A stretch of DNA of 20,300 nt from a virus. Below, piece by piece: positions 8,413 through 20,293 of the stretch. Under the pieces are notes generated by a model. It was not told the origin of the DNA. It worked only from the letters and a program-made list of their open reading frames with translations, and did no database searches. The translations under genes and the position numbers were made by a program. The stretch's first letter is position 1, and the number at the start of each line of letters is the position of its first letter. The stretch is taken from the IMG/VR virus record IMGVR_UViG_3300032083_000294, positions 1-20,300 of that record. One strand, given 5' to 3'.

Positions 8413-8626
8413 TTCCACTCTAATTAACCTCGAAGTGAAGTTAAATAAAGATGGAACTATTAGTTTTGATTATGACTATGTTAGCCCAGATACGTTTGTG
8501 TCTGAGGTTAACAGGGTCAACCCAGACTTCCCTCACACCCACACCATTGCGGCTATGATTAGAAATACTGTAAGTGAATTAGATTATATTGGTGCGGAAA
8601 TGCAAAAATTATTAAAGGCTATCTAG
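8387..8626 (+). CDS. Hypothetical protein, 79 aa, last gene of the + operon
   Basis: Unrecognised. I choose ATG 8387 (MTTLPKKNSS...) over the in-frame ATG 8354, because the longer form would sit deep in the previous gene. A basic, Ser-rich start is followed by strands (INLEVKLNKDGTISFDYDYV) and a C-terminal helix (AAMIRNTVSELDYIGAEMQKLL). It closes the replication operon and overlaps the end of the opposing hydrolase gene by 8 bases. A 9-bp inverted repeat (8408-8416 with 8453-8461) spans its first codons. Confidence 0.65.
   Translation: MTTLPKKNSSTLINLEVKLNKDGTISFDYDYVSPDTFVSEVNRVNPDFPHTHTIAAMIRNTVSELDYIGAEMQKLLKAI
8408..8461 (+). repeat. Inverted repeat AATAGTTCC / GGAACTATT
   Basis: A perfect 9-bp stem (8408-8416 with 8453-8461) encloses 36 bases that themselves hold a 5-bp stem (TTAAC/GTTAA). 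It covers the stop of the 58-aa gene and early codons of the 79-aa gene. A transcript could fold here and influence translation of the last gene. Confidence 0.4.
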
Positions 8627-9434
8627 CTTTATATGGGTCTATATAAAAGTAGTGTTCTCCATATTTTTTACCGTTCGACATTGGGTCTTGATTAAAATAC
8701 AAAGCACCCCCAGTATTATCTTTTAATTTACCTGCTAGTAAATCTCTAGCTATGTTAAAGGCTTTTATATACTTCTCTTCATGCGTTTTTCTAGGATTAT
8801 TAAACCTGTCTTCAAATTCTGTGACCCCTAAGAAGTCTCCGCTTCTAATTAATTTTTCTATTCTAGTTTCTCCTTTTCCAATACTAAACCCTGTCTTTTT
8901 ATTTGCTCTGTTAACTACAACGTTTGCCATAGCTAACATCTCTTCTTCGTTTAAATTCTTATCACCTGCTTCCGTGACAATCATTTTAGCAATTAAGTCT
9001 GCATCATACATAAATTTAATTTCATCTGGCTTTTCTTTTGAAACTATAGGCGTTTCTACCTTTTCAACTTTAACATCCCCAGTGGGAACATTATCTTTAT
9101 CAAATTGTTGCCCAGGCCTAGCTTCAATTATTTGTTTTTCTTTTTCTTTCCCATAGCCAAGCAAACTTTGAACTCGTTCTTTCATGTAAGATATAAATCC
9201 ATCTCTATCATTACTTAAATCTTCTACAACTATATCATTGTAATCTACTTTGTTCATACCATACTTAGATTCTTGATACTCTTGTTTAATTACATCCATA
9301 GCCTCTTTGTCATTTATGTATGGAGATACATAGCTTTCTTCAAAGCCTTTACCAAGAACTACTGTCTGCCCTTCTATTTCTTTTGTTTGTAATCTTTCTG
9401 TTTGTTGATTTAACGCATCACTTGTTTCTGTCAT
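8619..9434 (-). CDS. SleB-type cell-wall hydrolase (endolysin or virion lysin), 271 aa
   Basis: The C-terminal half is a Hydrolase_2/SleB domain: IVTEAGDKN with the catalytic-type Glu, MLAMANVVVNRA, ...FEDRF..., FNIARDLLAG, DNTGGALYFNQ and GEHYFY at the end. Such enzymes cleave peptidoglycan glycan strands. The first 150 or so residues are polar and charged with no recognised domain and no signal peptide, so export would need a holin, or the enzyme is carried in the virion. I start at ATG 9434 (MTETSDALNQ). An upstream in-frame start at 9491 would run through the previous gene's end. No clear Shine-Dalgarno is seen. It is the last gene of the - operon, after a run of small membrane proteins, which suits a lysis cassette. 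A palindrome near-copy (9077-9087) encodes VPTG. Confidence 0.8.
   Translation of the reverse strand: MTETSDALNQQTERLQTKEIEGQTVVLGKGFEESYVSPYINDKEAMDVIKQEYQESKYGMNKVDYNDIVVEDLSNDRDGFISYMKERVQSLLGYGKEKEKQIIEARPGQQFDKDNVPTGDVKVEKVETPIVSKEKPDEIKFMYDADLIAKMIVTEAGDKNLNEEEMLAMANVVVNRANKKTGFSIGKGETRIEKLIRSGDFLGVTEFEDRFNNPRKTHEEKYIKAFNIARDLLAGKLKDNTGGALYFNQDPMSNGKKYGEHYFYIDPYKAR
8628..8647. terminator. Weak AT-only hairpin at the convergent junction
   Basis: TTTATAT (8628-8634), loop GGGTCT, ATATAAA (8641-8647) begins one base after the + operon's last stop. No run of T follows on either strand, and it lies inside the hydrolase frame, so termination is doubtful. It is the only candidate found at the junction. 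Confidence 0.2.
9077..9087. repeat. Palindrome near-copy CCCCAGTGGGA
   Basis: One mismatch at the outer base, in the hydrolase gene (minus strand), encoding Val-Pro-Thr-Gly. Confidence 0.7.
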
Positions 9435-9453
9435 AAATACTACTATTATTAAA

Positions 9454-9891
9454 CTATTTTTTAACCAAGCTACCACCAAAGTACAATCCAATAATTGCTG
9501 ACATTAGATGGGTATCCAGAGGTGTAATTACTACGCCAAAGAACTCTTTATCCATAGTTATTTCTTTTTGTTCTACTAAGAATAAAAATCCTCTAGAAAA
9601 TTCTGTCCAAGTTAAATACACACTTGTATCAAAAAATACAGGTGCTAATTTAGGCCAAGCAATAATAAAAAATACAGCAGTTAAAGCTATAATTCTTCTA
9701 GTAAATTGAAAACCTTTGTTCTCATATGTTCTAGCTTTATCAATATGTTTCATTTGATTATCAGCTCTAGCTAATAACATTTTTTGCTCGTCTTGTTTTG
9801 CTTTGATACTCTGTGACCAAATGGACATAACTCCACCTAGCACACTAGAGCCTAGCATTGTAATCATTTCTACTGGTAACCCACCTAACAT
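9454..9891 (-). CDS. Membrane protein, 145 aa, holin candidate
   Basis: Hydrophobic segments lie at about 8-25 (EMITMLGSSVLGGVMSIW), 66-86 (RIIALTAVFFIIAWPKLAPVF) and 128-142 (HLMSAIIGLYFGGSL). Between the first two is a charged helix (28-60), and between the last two a 40-residue soluble loop. Size, topology and position just upstream of the cell-wall hydrolase suggest a holin, though I cannot assign a known holin family. Proteins with the ITPLDTH...AIIGLYFGGS ending are familiar from marine phages as hypotheticals. AGGAG sits ahead of the ATG (minus-strand reading TAAGGAGAAATAAATG). The stop is 19 bases before the hydrolase start. Confidence 0.75.
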   Translation of the reverse strand: MLGGLPVEMITMLGSSVLGGVMSIWSQSIKAKQDEQKMLLARADNQMKHIDKARTYENKGFQFTRRIIALTAVFFIIAWPKLAPVFFDTSVYLTWTEFSRGFLFLVEQKEITMDKEFFGVVITPLDTHLMSAIIGLYFGGSLVKK

Positions 9892-10017: not shown

Positions 10018-10224
10018 CTAGTTATCTCCTAACTTTTTGTTAATATTTTTAATCTCTGATTCTATAACTGCAAGTCTTACCTCCATTTTAGTAAACATAA
10101 CCAGAGCTTCTTCTATTCTGTCGATGTCATTTTCCATTGCAGATATACGTTGTGAAGTCATACCCCATGTAATACCTAAAGCTAAGACAACCCCAACAAA
10201 CCAAACTGTATCTTTTAAATTCAT
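10018..10224 (-). CDS. Membrane-anchored coiled-coil protein, 68 aa
   Basis: One N-terminal membrane segment (about 7-22, VWFVGVVLALGITWGM) is followed by a coiled-coil-like helix with regular hydrophobic spacing (RISAMENDIDRIEEALVMFTKMEVRLAVIESEIKNINKKL). The shape resembles inner-membrane spanins (Rz type), but it is short for one. It also parallels the larger 167-aa protein at 18036-18539, which has the same anchor-plus-coil plan. AGGAG lies ahead of the ATG (minus reading CTAGGAGATAACAATATG), very close to the stop of the 1419-aa gene. No outer-membrane partner gene was found beside it. Confidence 0.75.
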   Translation of the reverse strand: MNLKDTVWFVGVVLALGITWGMTSQRISAMENDIDRIEEALVMFTKMEVRLAVIESEIKNINKKLGDN

Positions 10225-16372: not shown

Positions 16373-18034
16373 CTATTCTATTCTACTGCCTACATTAATA
16401 AGTATGTCACCAATAACACCACCAATTAATTGATTGAGTTTACTTTTAGATGCTTCATCCATAAACATTAAATTAGTTTCTCTTTCTAATGCCGCCATTG
16501 TAATGTTATGATTTCTATTCTCAATGTTTTCTGATGAAGTGTTTGCCCAACTTGCTTCATCTCTCCATTGTTGCCACAGTGCAGACATTGCAAAGTTAGA
16601 TAATCCTAACAAGTTTGCCGCATCTGTTTGGTTAGCCGCATTAACTGCCGCAGTATTTGCAGTATTGATTTGTCTTCTCCATGCTACATTAGATTGGTCT
16701 ACTACTCTTTGATTCTCCACATTAAACTTTTGTCTTGAGTCAACTAGTTGTGCGTTAAACTGATTGATTGCCGCCTCTCGTTGTGCATCAGCTTCTGCTA
16801 CTTGTATTTCATTATTAGAATTAAGTGCATTTATTTTATTTGTTTCTGCTATAGAGAACTGATTCATAGCATCTGTTCTTTGTGCATTTTGCGTTTGTAT
16901 CTGTGCTTGTAAATTATCAAAGAACTCATCAGTTTGCTTTTGACTTGTTGCATTGAACTGTAAAGATGCATTATCAGCCGCTTGGTCAGACAGTAATACT
17001 TGTTGTCTATTTTGTAAGTTAGTTAAACTAGTAGCCTGTCTATTAGATAGATTAGTCATGTCAGTTTGAAAATAGGTTTGGGCATTTTGTATTGCCGCTT
17101 GTTGTCTATTATTTAAATTAGCTAATATGATTTGTCTATAGGCTTCTGCATCTGCCGCCGCAATTTGTGTGCCTGCTCTAAGCACACCTTCTGCTATAGC
17201 TTCTGCCGCAATACTAGAAGCACCAAGACCTCTCTTTGCCATTGCCGCCTCTGCCACTCGTTGTGCACCTCTTGCAAATGGAGGTAGAGGATTACCTTGT
17301 GCTAATGCATTTTCTACATCCGAAGTAATATTTGCTAGTTGTCCTCTTACTGTAGCATTAGCAGTTAGCTCTGCTTGTTGTGCTTGTACTAATTCATTTT
17401 GATTTACTGCTGTTTGCTCTGCTGTTGTTTGAGCCGCAGTCCCTATATCTGTAGGTGTATATGTTCTAAATGTTTCTTGAAATTGTGTTGGAGAGACTGG
17501 AGCCGCAGTCCCTACAGTTGCAGGAGTTATTGTTGGAGCAACAGTTGGTGCAGGAACTGCCGCAGGAGCATCACCTGTTAGTACGCCCGGTGTAGTTTGT
17601 ATTGTTCCAGGAGATACATTTTGTAATTGTAATTGTTGTCCAACACTAGTCCCAGTGGGAAGACCAGGCTGTCTAACTTGAGAGCCTACTTGACCTTGTA
17701 TAAATTGTGATGGGTCTTGAGTTCCTTGTTGTGGTGCTATTTGATTTGGAAATAGTTGAGGTCCGCCTTCTGAGCCTGGGGGCATAGGCCCGCCAGGAGA
17801 TACTTGTCGTAATCCACTATTATCTAAAGTTAATAATTGGCCTTGGCCTTTACTATTTAAATACTTTTGTAAAGCCCCAATCATTGATGACGAACCTTGA
17901 TACTCTTTTCCTTTGTAGTAATATTTTCTTACATCCGCAGTCTGTACTCCAGGAGGTACAAAATTTTGTAAAACATCGTCTTCTGCAAACGGATTTGAAG
18001 AGGGTACATTTTTTATATCATCTTTTATAGCCAT
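16373..18034 (-). CDS. Ala/Gln/Asn-rich repeat virion structural protein, 553 aa
   Basis: The first 60 residues are polar. A long Pro/Gly/Gln/Thr-rich linker (about 70-200) is followed by a long helical region with degenerate repeats around N-L-x-N-R-Q (ANLNNRQQAAIQNAQ, TNLSNRQATSLTNLQNRQQ, then Q/N/A-rich variants to about 460). The segment AMAKRGLGASSIAAEAI just before the repeats is one I recognise from virion structural proteins of marine myophages and podophages, including T4-like cyanophages. The C-terminus (KLNQLIGGVIGDILINVG) is hydrophobic. A long coiled-coil or fibrous virion component is likely; whether it is internal or tail-associated cannot be told. It starts one base after the previous gene. 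A palindrome copy (17650-17660) encodes LPTG. Confidence 0.65.
   Translation of the reverse strand: MAIKDDIKNVPSSNPFAEDDVLQNFVPPGVQTADVRKYYYKGKEYQGSSSMIGALQKYLNSKGQGQLLTLDNSGLRQVSPGGPMPPGSEGGPQLFPNQIAPQQGTQDPSQFIQGQVGSQVRQPGLPTGTSVGQQLQLQNVSPGTIQTTPGVLTGDAPAAVPAPTVAPTITPATVGTAAPVSPTQFQETFRTYTPTDIGTAAQTTAEQTAVNQNELVQAQQAELTANATVRGQLANITSDVENALAQGNPLPPFARGAQRVAEAAMAKRGLGASSIAAEAIAEGVLRAGTQIAAADAEAYRQIILANLNNRQQAAIQNAQTYFQTDMTNLSNRQATSLTNLQNRQQVLLSDQAADNASLQFNATSQKQTDEFFDNLQAQIQTQNAQRTDAMNQFSIAETNKINALNSNNEIQVAEADAQREAAINQFNAQLVDSRQKFNVENQRVVDQSNVAWRRQINTANTAAVNAANQTDAANLLGLSNFAMSALWQQWRDEASWANTSSENIENRNHNITMAALERETNLMFMDEASKSKLNQLIGGVIGDILINVGSRIE
17650..17660. repeat. Palindrome TCCCAGTGGGA, last copy
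   Basis: Exact copy in the linker of the 553-aa gene (minus strand), encoding Leu-Pro-Thr-Gly. Confidence 0.85.
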
Positions 18035-18035
18035 A

Positions 18036-18539
18036 TTATCCGCCTAATGGGTTACTGTTTTCTAGTTTGATTTCTTCAATCATAACGTCTTGTACTTCAT
18101 TCTCTTTAGATATAATTGCAACATCTGTACTTAGCTGTTCAATATCTTCTTCTAATTCCCAACCATATTCTTCTAACATCTGAAGCTGTTCAAGAATAGG
18201 CTGTAGATTAGCAGGTTCTGGTAGCATAGCTATCTGTTCTCTAATTTTACCTATCTCTTTAAATACTAAAGTTAAATCTGTAGGTTTAATTTGTTCTTCT
18301 ACTTTTGCAATTCTATCTATTAAATCTACTTTGTATTCATTAGCATATAGTAAAGCACTATCTACTTTTATATTAAGCTCTTTATCTTTTTCTTTTAGTG
18401 GTGCTAAATTAACTGGAGGTGTAGATTCTATCGCATCTAAGCGTGAGTTGAACTGGCCCCATGTGTAAAAGCCCCCACCAATTGCTCCAATAACACCTAA
18501 TAATGCGGCGTATGTGCTAAGTTTATCCATTATTTTCAT
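18036..18539 (-). CDS. Membrane-anchored coiled-coil protein, 167 aa
   Basis: After a short start there is one membrane segment (about 9-24, TYAALLGVIGAIGGGFYTWG). A long acidic coiled-coil region runs nearly to the end (RLDAIES..., LIDRIAKVEEQI, IGKIREQIAM, EQLQMLEEYGWELEEDIEQL). It probably sits in the inner membrane with the coil outside it. The ATG overlaps the stop of the exported acidic protein (ATGA at 18536-18539 on the minus strand), and GGAGG lies about 10 bases upstream. This coupling suggests the two work together. The anchor-plus-coil plan recurs in the 68-aa protein at 10018-10224. The function is unknown; spanin-like or adhesion roles are possible. Confidence 0.7.
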   Translation of the reverse strand: MKIMDKLSTYAALLGVIGAIGGGFYTWGQFNSRLDAIESTPPVNLAPLKEKDKELNIKVDSALLYANEYKVDLIDRIAKVEEQIKPTDLTLVFKEIGKIREQIAMLPEPANLQPILEQLQMLEEYGWELEEDIEQLSTDVAIISKENEVQDVMIEEIKLENSNPLGG

Positions 18540-20293
18540 TGTCTTAATGCCTCCAATTCAGCTAGTAGTTTATTTTTTTTAATGTTTATAGTTATAAGTT
18601 TTACTCTATGTACTTCTACTGGGTCGTTCTCTGCATAAGAACTTAGTGAAGTACCTACATATATCTCTCCAGAATATGAGGATAAATCTATTTGCATAAA
18701 TAATCCCATATTGGTGTTTTCATATATATCCTTTGCAGAATAAAATGCAATCTTTTTATACGCATCTAAATCATTTCCTTTAAAAAATAAATCCTCTTTT
18801 GTTAAGTTTTGAGTTGTTTCTTTTGTAGTTTTAGCTATTTGCTTTGCTATAGCTTTTAAATTCTTTTTTAATTGTGTCTCTACTTTTGCAACATCTGTAG
18901 CAATCCTGTCTTCGGTGTCCAATTCTCTGTCTTCCGATTGTATATCTTCTTGCTCTCCACCTTCTTCTGGTGGTACTTCTGATTCCTCAGTTCCTTTGCT
19001 ATCGGATTTGTCTTCGTTATTATCTTCTTGTTCTGGCTTGTCATTACTTGCTACTTCTTTTTCTACTGGTTCTGATTCAGTAGTTTCCTCCATTGTTTCT
19101 TTTTCATCTTCAATAACCTCTGGTACGCTTTCTTTCTCCGTTGCGACACTTTCCAATGGTTCCTCAAACTCGTCAAAAGATTCCTCAGTAAGTTCTTCAT
19201 TGAACTCCTCCTCAGTTATCTCTTCAAAAAACTCTTCGGCTGTTATGCCTTCTTCTTCAAGAAACTCTATGAACTCTTCTTCCATACCAGTCTCTTCTAA
19301 AAAATCTGTAAAGTCTTCTTCAAACTCCTCTGTAAATACTTCCTCCGTCATCATTGGCGGTGGCTCCATTACATATCCATCTTCAAAAAATACCTCTTCC
19401 ATTGTAGGCATTTCTTCAAAATCCATTTCTGGTAACTCTTCAAAGTCTTCAAACATAGGAGGTGGTTCAAAGGATGTTATATCCAACTCTTCCATTTCAA
19501 ATTCTTCAAAGTACATATCTTCTTCCATGGTGTACTCGTCTTCAAAATAGAAATCATCTCCCACTGAGTATTCATCAAATACTATTTCATCACTATCCCA
19601 ATCAAAATCATCTGGAATATCATTAATAATATCTATTATGTCTTCACTAATATCATCTATAATTTCTTGTGTATCCTCATTAATAGGCGGTATAGAAGTA
19701 TAAGTAACATTTAATGTGACATTATCTATATCTGGCCCCCAATGACCAGTTAAACTATTAGTGTTTTCTACTGATACTTTTATATCAAAATCTGTTTGTG
19801 TATTAGCCCCTTGTATGTGAGTATCTGTATAGTTGCTAAACTGATTACAGTTTATAGAACCACATCCAGTATCATTTATAACTCTTTGCTGTGTAGATAC
19901 TGAACCATCAGAACCAGTTATAGTTTGTTTTAACGTTGTGGTATTACTATAAGTATTCCAATACCAAATATCTGCACCAATTGTACTAGACCAACCATTT
20001 TGTATTTCTTGAGTTGTCATATTTGTTTTTTCTGACAACTTTACAGTTTGTTCTATTACAGTATTTTCTTCTGCCGCAACAGAACCTCCGGGGCCATTAC
20101 CCCCACCTGCAGACATATAATTATGGCCATGTGTATGTTCATCTATTGTCCACCCAGTAGTGTCATAAGTAGTACCAGTACCAAAAGTAGAGTTATTTAA
20201 TATATTCCCAGTGTTTATGTCAACACCAAAAGATTTATCCCATGTTAGTAAAAAACTACAAGTAAGTATTAATGCAATAACATATTTTAACAT
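18536..20293 (-). CDS. Exported, extremely acidic protein of unknown function, 585 aa
   Basis: A clear signal peptide (MLKYVIALILTCSFLL..., cleavage near SFG) leads to a Thr/Asn/Gly-rich, strand-rich domain (about 25-200) with one Cys pair (Cys144, Cys149) and conserved-looking aromatic and Gly positions, like a jelly-roll or carbohydrate-binding fold. Residues about 205-463 are dominated by Glu and Asp with Phe, Met and PPP interruptions (e.g. EFEEDFTDFLEETGMEEEF). The C-terminal 120 residues turn basic (QLKKNLKAIAKQIAKTTKE) and end in a strand-rich domain. A signal peptide on a large phage protein inside a virion operon is unusual. No Shine-Dalgarno is visible in the 7 bases left before the window ends. 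It is translationally coupled to the 167-aa membrane protein. Confidence 0.75.
   Translation of the reverse strand: MLKYVIALILTCSFLLTWDKSFGVDINTGNILNNSTFGTGTTYDTTGWTIDEHTHGHNYMSAGGGNGPGGSVAAEENTVIEQTVKLSEKTNMTTQEIQNGWSSTIGADIWYWNTYSNTTTLKQTITGSDGSVSTQQRVINDTGCGSINCNQFSNYTDTHIQGANTQTDFDIKVSVENTNSLTGHWGPDIDNVTLNVTYTSIPPINEDTQEIIDDISEDIIDIINDIPDDFDWDSDEIVFDEYSVGDDFYFEDEYTMEEDMYFEEFEMEELDITSFEPPPMFEDFEELPEMDFEEMPTMEEVFFEDGYVMEPPPMMTEEVFTEEFEEDFTDFLEETGMEEEFIEFLEEEGITAEEFFEEITEEEFNEELTEESFDEFEEPLESVATEKESVPEVIEDEKETMEETTESEPVEKEVASNDKPEQEDNNEDKSDSKGTEESEVPPEEGGEQEDIQSEDRELDTEDRIATDVAKVETQLKKNLKAIAKQIAKTTKETTQNLTKEDLFFKGNDLDAYKKIAFYSAKDIYENTNMGLFMQIDLSSYSGEIYVGTSLSSYAENDPVEVHRVKLITINIKKNKLLAELEALRQ

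Follow-up and report, generated by a model that had tools for sequence, protein, structure and literature searches.

What could a virus gain from giving a signal peptide to a protein with a long stretch rich in glutamate and aspartate, and from coupling its gene to that of a membrane-anchored coil? The question is raised by two genes of the IMG/VR virus record IMGVR_UViG_3300032083_000294, a stretch of 20.3 kb that is called the window here and in whose coordinates all positions are given. The open reading frames (ORFs) of B (585 amino acids) and C (167 amino acids) lie on its minus strand and share the four bases ATGA, at the coordinates and lengths given in the original prediction, an earlier reading of the letters alone. 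Our analyses indicate that B and C belong with a third gene, A, to a module that probably acts in the envelope of the infected cell. B and C comprise the following features:

18536 to 20293, minus strand: gene B, exported protein of 585 amino acids (ORF and relatives)
20225 to 20293, minus strand: signal peptide of B, residues 1-23, with the cleavage-like site SFG/VDI; such a site is present in 47/51 relatives
19685 to 20230, minus strand: head of B, residues 22-203, predicted jelly roll of the carbohydrate-binding-module (CBM) type, an exchanged domain by sequence comparison
18917 to 19684, minus strand: acidic part of B, residues 204-459, predicted to be mostly disordered, with 110 Asp/Glu among 256 residues
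18539 to 18916, minus strand: C-terminal part (tail) of B, residues 460-585, predicted to be helical with low confidence; its divergence tracks that of A
18036 to 18539, minus strand: gene C, 167 amino acids, with N-terminal membrane anchor, coil and C-terminal NPL motif, overlapping B by ATGA

The A-B-C module

Matches of B were obtained by tblastn in Mosig EXVC030M (Kyanoviridae) and HTVC023P. In both phages, an exported protein, A, precedes B and C follows, in HTVC023P after a gene for 51 amino acids. By this gene order, the conserved module has the form A-B-C; the window contains two of its three genes, B and C, and its A gene would lie past the contig end, upstream of B. The original prediction had taken B and C as the unit; the pair is indeed conserved in related phages, but the unit was drawn too small, as A upstream belongs to it as well.

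A was found in ten phage records, namely six pelagiphages, two roseophages, an uncultured autographivirus and a podovirus from Manatee Spring; the hosts given are SAR11 and Roseobacter, and the phage families differ. Our own profiles (E ≤ 0.001) detected the head or tail of B in 6/10 of these records and C in 8/10. In HTVC115P the match of the C profile is gp52, but the NPL-ending protein is gp49. When inspected by eye, all ten records contained a small membrane-plus-coil protein with NPL in the last eight residues after B, separated from it by none to three small genes. Proteins without a profile match occupy the place of B in four records and are unlike each other by eye: that of HTVC115P combines a beta-rich head and an acidic arm, that of MW202481 combines a head rich in Cys and an arm of Pro, Glu and Lys, and those of the two roseophages are short signal-peptide proteins without such an arm. 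A and C are thus, by our comparison, the more constant parts of the module and B is the variable one. Searches of phage records did not confirm relatives in cyanophages.

Scanning IMG/VR with A returned at least 600 stretches, at least 541 of them confirmed, from which a sample of 80 was kept that contained 53 non-redundant loci with a complete A gene. Among the matches listed, the head of B and C were each present in 43/43 of the A-fetched non-redundant loci with at least 3 kb downstream, and the tail was in the same ORF as the head in 41/43; in the other two loci B is split into two ORFs. Seen from the other side, every B gene in the loci retrieved by B or C for which 900 or more upstream bases are available has A directly before it (44/44). 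Pooling all loci gives 51/51 for the head, 49/51 for the tail and 51/51 for C, but this pool combines loci retrieved with any of the three genes, and the count of 43 is therefore the fair one. Another set, of 51 complete relative loci, 25 of them returned by the A scan and the others fetched with B or C, was the reference for all counts of protein features, with the window left out; 33 of these loci share the four-base overlap of B and C. As regards a bacterial origin, scanning genome contigs with A yielded eight loci among 46 pattern matches, located in contigs of metagenome-assembled genomes and one presumed single-cell contig, which may be phage contigs. The module is thus real, conserved and widespread, with A in at least 541 confirmed IMG/VR stretches and in phages of different families.

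The DNA polymerase of the window is nearest to that of pelagiphage HTVC033P (57%), followed by those of HMO-2011 and roseophages (37-40%), and for this reason the host is probably SAR11. No close relative at the DNA level was present in the phage collection. Neither B nor C of the window scored above the curated cut-off of a Pfam or NCBIfam family, and PHROGs gave no match at E 0.1.

The head of B as an exchanged domain

B was modelled with AlphaFold2 from the window protein and 36 relatives (mean predicted local distance difference test score, pLDDT, 52.6). The head at residues 22-203 was modelled fairly confidently (pLDDT blocks 64-92, weak loop ~53-69), and in agreement with the strand-rich N-terminal domain with one Cys pair that had been predicted from the letters, it models as a CBM-type jelly roll with one Cys pair. 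The nearest solved fold was the sugar-binding domain of Fbs1 (Z 13.5, root-mean-square deviation 3.1, 160 residues, 13% identity; head-model residues 20-198 covered), and the second was CBM16 (Z 11.6, root-mean-square deviation 3.7, 134 residues). Lower-ranked matches included CBM61, VP2 of infectious bursal disease virus (IBDV) and tailspike domains; phage tailspike and fibre domains with the same jelly roll stood lower in the PDB lists and also occurred among viral models. A structure hit to a tail-fibre family, which the original prediction had named as an outcome speaking against it, did not clearly result, since sugar-binding domains ranked best. The fold supports an N-terminal domain of a ligand-binding kind, with sugar binding itself as a supposition. 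Pfam CBM_4_9 (PF02018) did not match the window head at E 1, and it matched B of MedDCM-OCT-S28-C10 weakly, with 16.8 bits and below the cut-off of 25.9. GenBank labels HTVC033P gp45 and the MedDCM protein as 'putative carbohydrate binding domain containing protein', so the type of head has already been noticed by annotators.

The acidic part of window B (43% Asp/Glu, net charge -103) bears out the roughly 260 Glu/Asp-dominated residues described earlier and is predicted to be disordered; its counterparts in the 51 relatives comprise 148-278 amino acids with 40-51% Asp/Glu, a recurrence that exceeds chance. The C-terminus had been read as strand-rich, and here the model disagrees, predicting helices with low confidence at residues 463-494 and 558-584.

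Comparisons between close relatives show that the head has a history of its own. In an alignment with L014, its closest relative, every 50-base segment of the window between 18051 and 19650 shows 96-100% identity; over the head, identity falls to about 62%, and it stays low as far as the contig end, so that only one edge of the exchange is visible in the window. Part by part, the head is 54% identical to that of L014, against 96% for the acidic part, 98% for the tail and 99% for C. The opposite is found with L004, which shares 96% identity in the head, 67% in the tail and 73% in C. Between L008 and L022, identity falls over the head; upstream it is for the most part 85-98%, apart from a single lower stretch close to where A ends, and downstream it is for the most part 80-100%; between L074 and L082 it falls over the head likewise, with 66-91% upstream and 88-98% downstream. 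In 16/51 loci, the nearest relative by C bears the other head type, 23-29% identical. We conclude from these alignments that the head is a cassette exchanged by recombination, with arm, tail, A and C staying put.

Distances between the 51 loci point in the same direction, with the reservation that Mantel and nearest-neighbour counts rest on related sequences and not on independent events. Distances of A and the B tail were correlated (Mantel r 0.69; largest of 499 permutations 0.27), which suggests that A and the B tail act together, and those of A and C weakly so (r 0.42; largest permutation 0.35). Head distances correlated with nothing (r 0.07-0.17; largest permutations 0.21-0.24), which suggests that the head meets something variable. 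The exchange of heads argues that this target varies between hosts or rivals.

Predicted export of A and B and anchoring of C

Gene order, export patterns, cysteine numbers, fold class, head exchange and neighbourhood were computed. Export was judged from a signal-peptidase-site pattern and from hydropathy counts, with no dedicated signal-peptide predictor. B of the window starts with a hydrophobic stretch followed by the cleavage-like site, and the simple pattern is found in B of 47/51 and in A of 50/51 loci, as expected from the signal peptide and the envelope export that had been proposed. The sequence of these signal peptides changes between relatives and their presence is kept. A lipobox pattern was absent from the first 45 residues of A and B (0/51 each). 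The Cys pair of the window head follows the signal peptide, and from residue 41 onward the Cys count of B is even in 51/51 loci, with 0, 2 or 4 Cys in head type N1 (39 loci) and 6 Cys in type N2 (12 loci). A has exactly four Cys after residue 25 in 48/51 loci, and C has none in the set of 51. Median ratios of nonsynonymous to synonymous substitution rates (dN/dS; 179-217 pairs) were 0.19 for A, 0.19 for the head, 0.32 for the acidic part, 0.27 for the tail and 0.20 for C. Cys pattern, export signals and dN/dS fit export to an oxidising compartment.

C ends with NPL no more than nine residues from its terminus in 51/51 loci. The N side of its N-terminal anchor is the more positive one in 44/51, which, on hydropathy and charge only, agrees with the membrane-anchored coil recognised before and points to an N-in anchor with the coil in the periplasm. 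The structure model of A was of low confidence (mean pLDDT 57.8) and had no match in the PDB at E 0.001; three of four A proteins scanned matched PHROG 20531, a family of unknown function.

A proposed late, envelope-tethered lectin complex

The sequences support the anatomy of the module well, including the export of A and B through Sec and the membrane anchoring of C. For its function we tentatively favor a late, envelope-tethered lectin complex that would cover host sugars or receptors, at a probability somewhat short of even. Slightly more cautiously still, we suggest an exported, inner-membrane-tethered complex of three proteins, with an exchangeable lectin head on a long acidic arm that is aimed from inside at the sugars of the cell's own envelope or at competitors. 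Such a complex would be a new kind of envelope apparatus in phages, with a head swapped in the manner of tail-fibre tips. We infer late timing, tethering of B by A or C, sugar binding and receptor masking. A and B bear signal peptides of the Sec type, and the anchor of C places its coil, by prediction, in the periplasm. The C-terminal part of B probably holds B to A and perhaps to C, and the long, polyanionic, disordered arm could give the head enough reach to cross the periplasm. The module would be made late, beside lysis and fibre genes, and the head may bind envelope or surface sugars specific for the type of host, such as nascent or displayed lipopolysaccharide (LPS) or other glycans. A bound head could mask or block receptors, by which rival phages would be excluded and the phage's own progeny would not be lost to the dying cell and its debris. 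We favor receptor masking because it explains both the head exchange and the position on the fibre and lysis side.

Several points weigh against this interpretation. LPS sugars point outward, and we are aware of no path by which B could pass the outer membrane; the one that was tested, a CsgG pore, was found in 0/11 records (the window and the ten A-bearing phages), with 4/14 control genomes positive. The late gene position suits lysis better than early exclusion. Jelly rolls are a common fold and bind proteins too, and a shared fold is no proof of sugar binding by the modelled head; localisation, sugar binding and receptor masking are all predicted functions. Contact between B and C gains no support from co-variation, since the correlation of B tail and C distances is within the range of permutations (r 0.21; largest permutation 0.30). 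In the window, the exchange has its upstream edge past the end of the contig. Coupling of the head to a virion gene was tested, in 14 loci, solely through the large gene that precedes the holin-like gene. This gene varies within each of the 14 close pairs whatever the head (r 0.03 over 91 pairs), so that head exchange was not tied to it and nothing follows for the coupling. The large gene matched a PHROG of internal virion proteins in one of four cases. Its strong divergence even between close relatives is an observation in its own right (1100-1580 amino acids; L008:730-5382, L074:1-4203, L051:1-3675).

Gene neighbourhood and a possible role in lysis

A spanin-like role in lysis is the main rival explanation, which we consider a serious contender and still unlikely on balance. 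C would resemble an i-spanin, and B or A would reach the outer membrane or the cell wall to disrupt the outer membrane or to time the final lysis step. The anchor-plus-coil layout and charge of C suit this role, and the arm of B would be long enough to span the periplasm. Further genes of the window that bear on it are:

8619 to 9491, minus strand: cell wall hydrolase, probable endolysin (PF07486 over cut-off)
9454 to 9891, minus strand: holin-like membrane protein, named from layout and neighbourhood only
10018 to 10224, minus strand: membrane-plus-coil protein of 68 amino acids, encoded close to the holin-like gene in the window as well as in some relatives

Homologues of the holin-like gene lie within 2 kb upstream of A in 21/37 loci with at least 2 kb upstream, and in 16/29 A-fetched loci among the matches listed. 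A GTA_holin_3TM protein is encoded directly upstream of A in Mosig (24.9 bits, cut-off 24.8), and in HTVC023P an M15 peptidase, by annotation, adjoins C. Among 179 non-redundant neighbours (up to four genes per side and 700 amino acids, omitting genes matched by our own profiles), 129 were co-directional and 116 of these were scanned with Pfam; two of the 13 omitted were scanned separately. In these 116, Pfam matched five families of lysozymes or transglycosylases, a single holin family and several families of tail type; Phage_lysozyme2, a tail lysozyme, was matched in three neighbours and four other lysozyme or SLT families in one each. The absence of an Rz match over the cut-off from the records searched also agrees with a role in lysis.

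The same neighbourhood sets limits to this explanation. The holin-like gene is missing from the 2 kb upstream of A in 16/37 loci, and a holin-like or endolysin gene stands beside the module in only 5/10 phage records (Mosig, HTVC023P, HTVC033P, MW202481 and MedDCM-OCT-S28-C10). HTVC202P and HTVC115P have no such gene annotated nearby; for Baldr, coverage does not include the side upstream of the module. In the window, B and C are upstream of a gene for 553 amino acids, and more than 8 kb separate them from the holin-like gene and the hydrolase, which lie at the opposite end of the late block. The module is thus often, though not always, located at the junction of lysis and fibre genes. In 10/37 loci, another anchor-plus-coil gene, like HTVC031P gp49, is already present within 2 kb upstream of A. 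An o-spanin requires a lipobox, and A and B lack one; a hypervariable recognition head would be unexpected in a spanin. The spanin-like explanation accounts for C and the lysis neighbours but not for the missing lipobox or the head exchange. The function of the module lies, in our view, chiefly between receptor masking and lysis.

Some observations on these neighbours deserve mention in their own right. In two roseophages, the gene annotated as lysozyme is C itself (L107:3292-3873, L108:8165-8587); it reads as an anchor and coil ending with NPL, and the name is probably wrong. The holin-like family occurs in 26 phage records and is labelled peptidase M15 in Skadi phages (L188:5004-5435); an M15 Pfam domain was absent from the two homologues scanned, from the window and MedDCM. 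The holin-like protein of the window was near the cut-off of no Pfam or NCBIfam family, and matched no Pfam family over it, and belongs to PHROG 38283, of unknown function. Kinship with the GTA_holin_3TM type of Mosig and MW202481 was rejected after a weak profile comparison (17 columns, probability 10%), and it is because of this and the missing Pfam match that 'holin-like' refers to layout and neighbourhood only. The second membrane-plus-coil family, of the HTVC031P gp49 type, is encoded near the holin-like gene (L189:5436-5801, L191:5828-6193, L055:1233-1592), also in phages for which the search with A gave nothing, and is a possible i-spanin candidate. In several marine phages, small Cys-bearing proteins with signal-like N-termini are found repeatedly in the vicinity of the holin-like gene (L188:4092-4304, L191:6402-6617, L192:6779-6982). 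Within the gene for 553 amino acids, the N-terminal part at 17701-18050 of the window is 36-64% identical to L014 per 50 bases, with 90-100% on either side, and may be a second replaced segment.

Other explanations

Superinfection exclusion in the periplasm, in which the head would bind ejection proteins of rivals and its variability would reflect an arms race, is considerably less probable than lysis. Export signals, a membrane-anchored partner and a rapidly exchanged recognition domain would be expected in such a system, but the module is placed among late genes and the head fold resembles sugar-binding domains. PADLOC assigned A and B to no defence family, and for C returned one marginal coil-type match (PbeC, E 0.009).

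It is less probable again that B is a component of the virion, a receptor-binding or decoration protein with an uncleaved signal-like N-terminus. The head fold occurs in phage tail proteins too, heads are exchanged like fibre tips, and fibre-type genes are found upstream of A in some loci (Peptidase_S74 in L006, L141 and L156; DUF7483 in L014 and L136). Virion proteins of this kind would not explain why the export signals of A and B are retained while their sequence changes, why B has even Cys numbers or why C is a membrane protein. DNA mimicry by the acidic part, also considered in the original prediction, finds its argument in the strong negative charge and is very improbable; it was rejected because this part is predicted to be disordered and the protein that contains it carries an export signal, which would take it away from DNA.

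Should B be a secreted lectin matched to the host, these phages would use a part traded like fibre tips to alter or cover the envelope of the cell they infect, and superinfection, lysis and host range in the ocean would appear in a new light. Should the module serve lysis instead, it could provide the outer-membrane step for marine phages that showed no Rz-type spanin.

Relation to known systems

The layout had been judged undescribed, and in the literature covered on pelagiphages and comparators, to which most subscription journals do not belong, no paper was recognised as describing the module. The words lysozyme, holin and carbohydrate do not occur in the portions covered of the main text on the HMO-2011 group (PMC9038755), and the A-B-C genes are not named in the parts covered of a paper on expression timing in HTVC027P (PMC12753301), a phage that is not among the records with A.

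Curli or type VIII secretion genes of pelagiphages resemble the module in that envelope proteins are exported in SAR11 phages (PMC9599517, PMC7029224), but they are a separate gene set in the covered parts of the reports (PMC7029224, PMC9004378, PMC9599517). A curli system was rejected as CsgG was lacking in the window and all ten A-bearing phages.

The jelly-roll fold of the head is shared with CBM16, CBM4, CBM22, CBM61 and the Fbs1 domain; it differs from the CBM families in lacking a significant Pfam match in the window and in sitting on an exported phage protein. Llp of phage T5 is a small lipoprotein that targets FhuA and blocks this receptor. It is comparable in the way it works only, as an envelope-exported phage protein that blocks a receptor, by other means than those proposed here, and no sequence relation is claimed.

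C resembles the releasin gp25 of phage Mu (DUF2730) as a short protein with an N-terminal membrane segment, and C of MedDCM-OCT-S28-C10 carries a DUF2730 annotation in its record. Pfam DUF2730 had no match in the five C-position proteins scanned (window C and four others). DUF2730 proteins are N-out/C-in according to the part covered of PMC9239132, whereas the charge of C predicts N-in.

The two-component spanins Rz/Rz1 resemble the module in that C is an inner-membrane anchor with a coil, the genes are adjacent and overlap, and lysis genes are neighbours in part of the loci. The module differs from them by the lack of a lipobox lipoprotein, by the 585-amino-acid partner with its lectin-type head and acidic arm, by the third gene A and by head exchange. 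Rz (PF03245) was found over the cut-off in 0/11 records, with one sub-threshold match in HTVC033P outside the module. In the part covered of a spanin survey, 91/677 phages are without a spanin (PMC6139136), and replacement of a spanin by the module is therefore conceivable.

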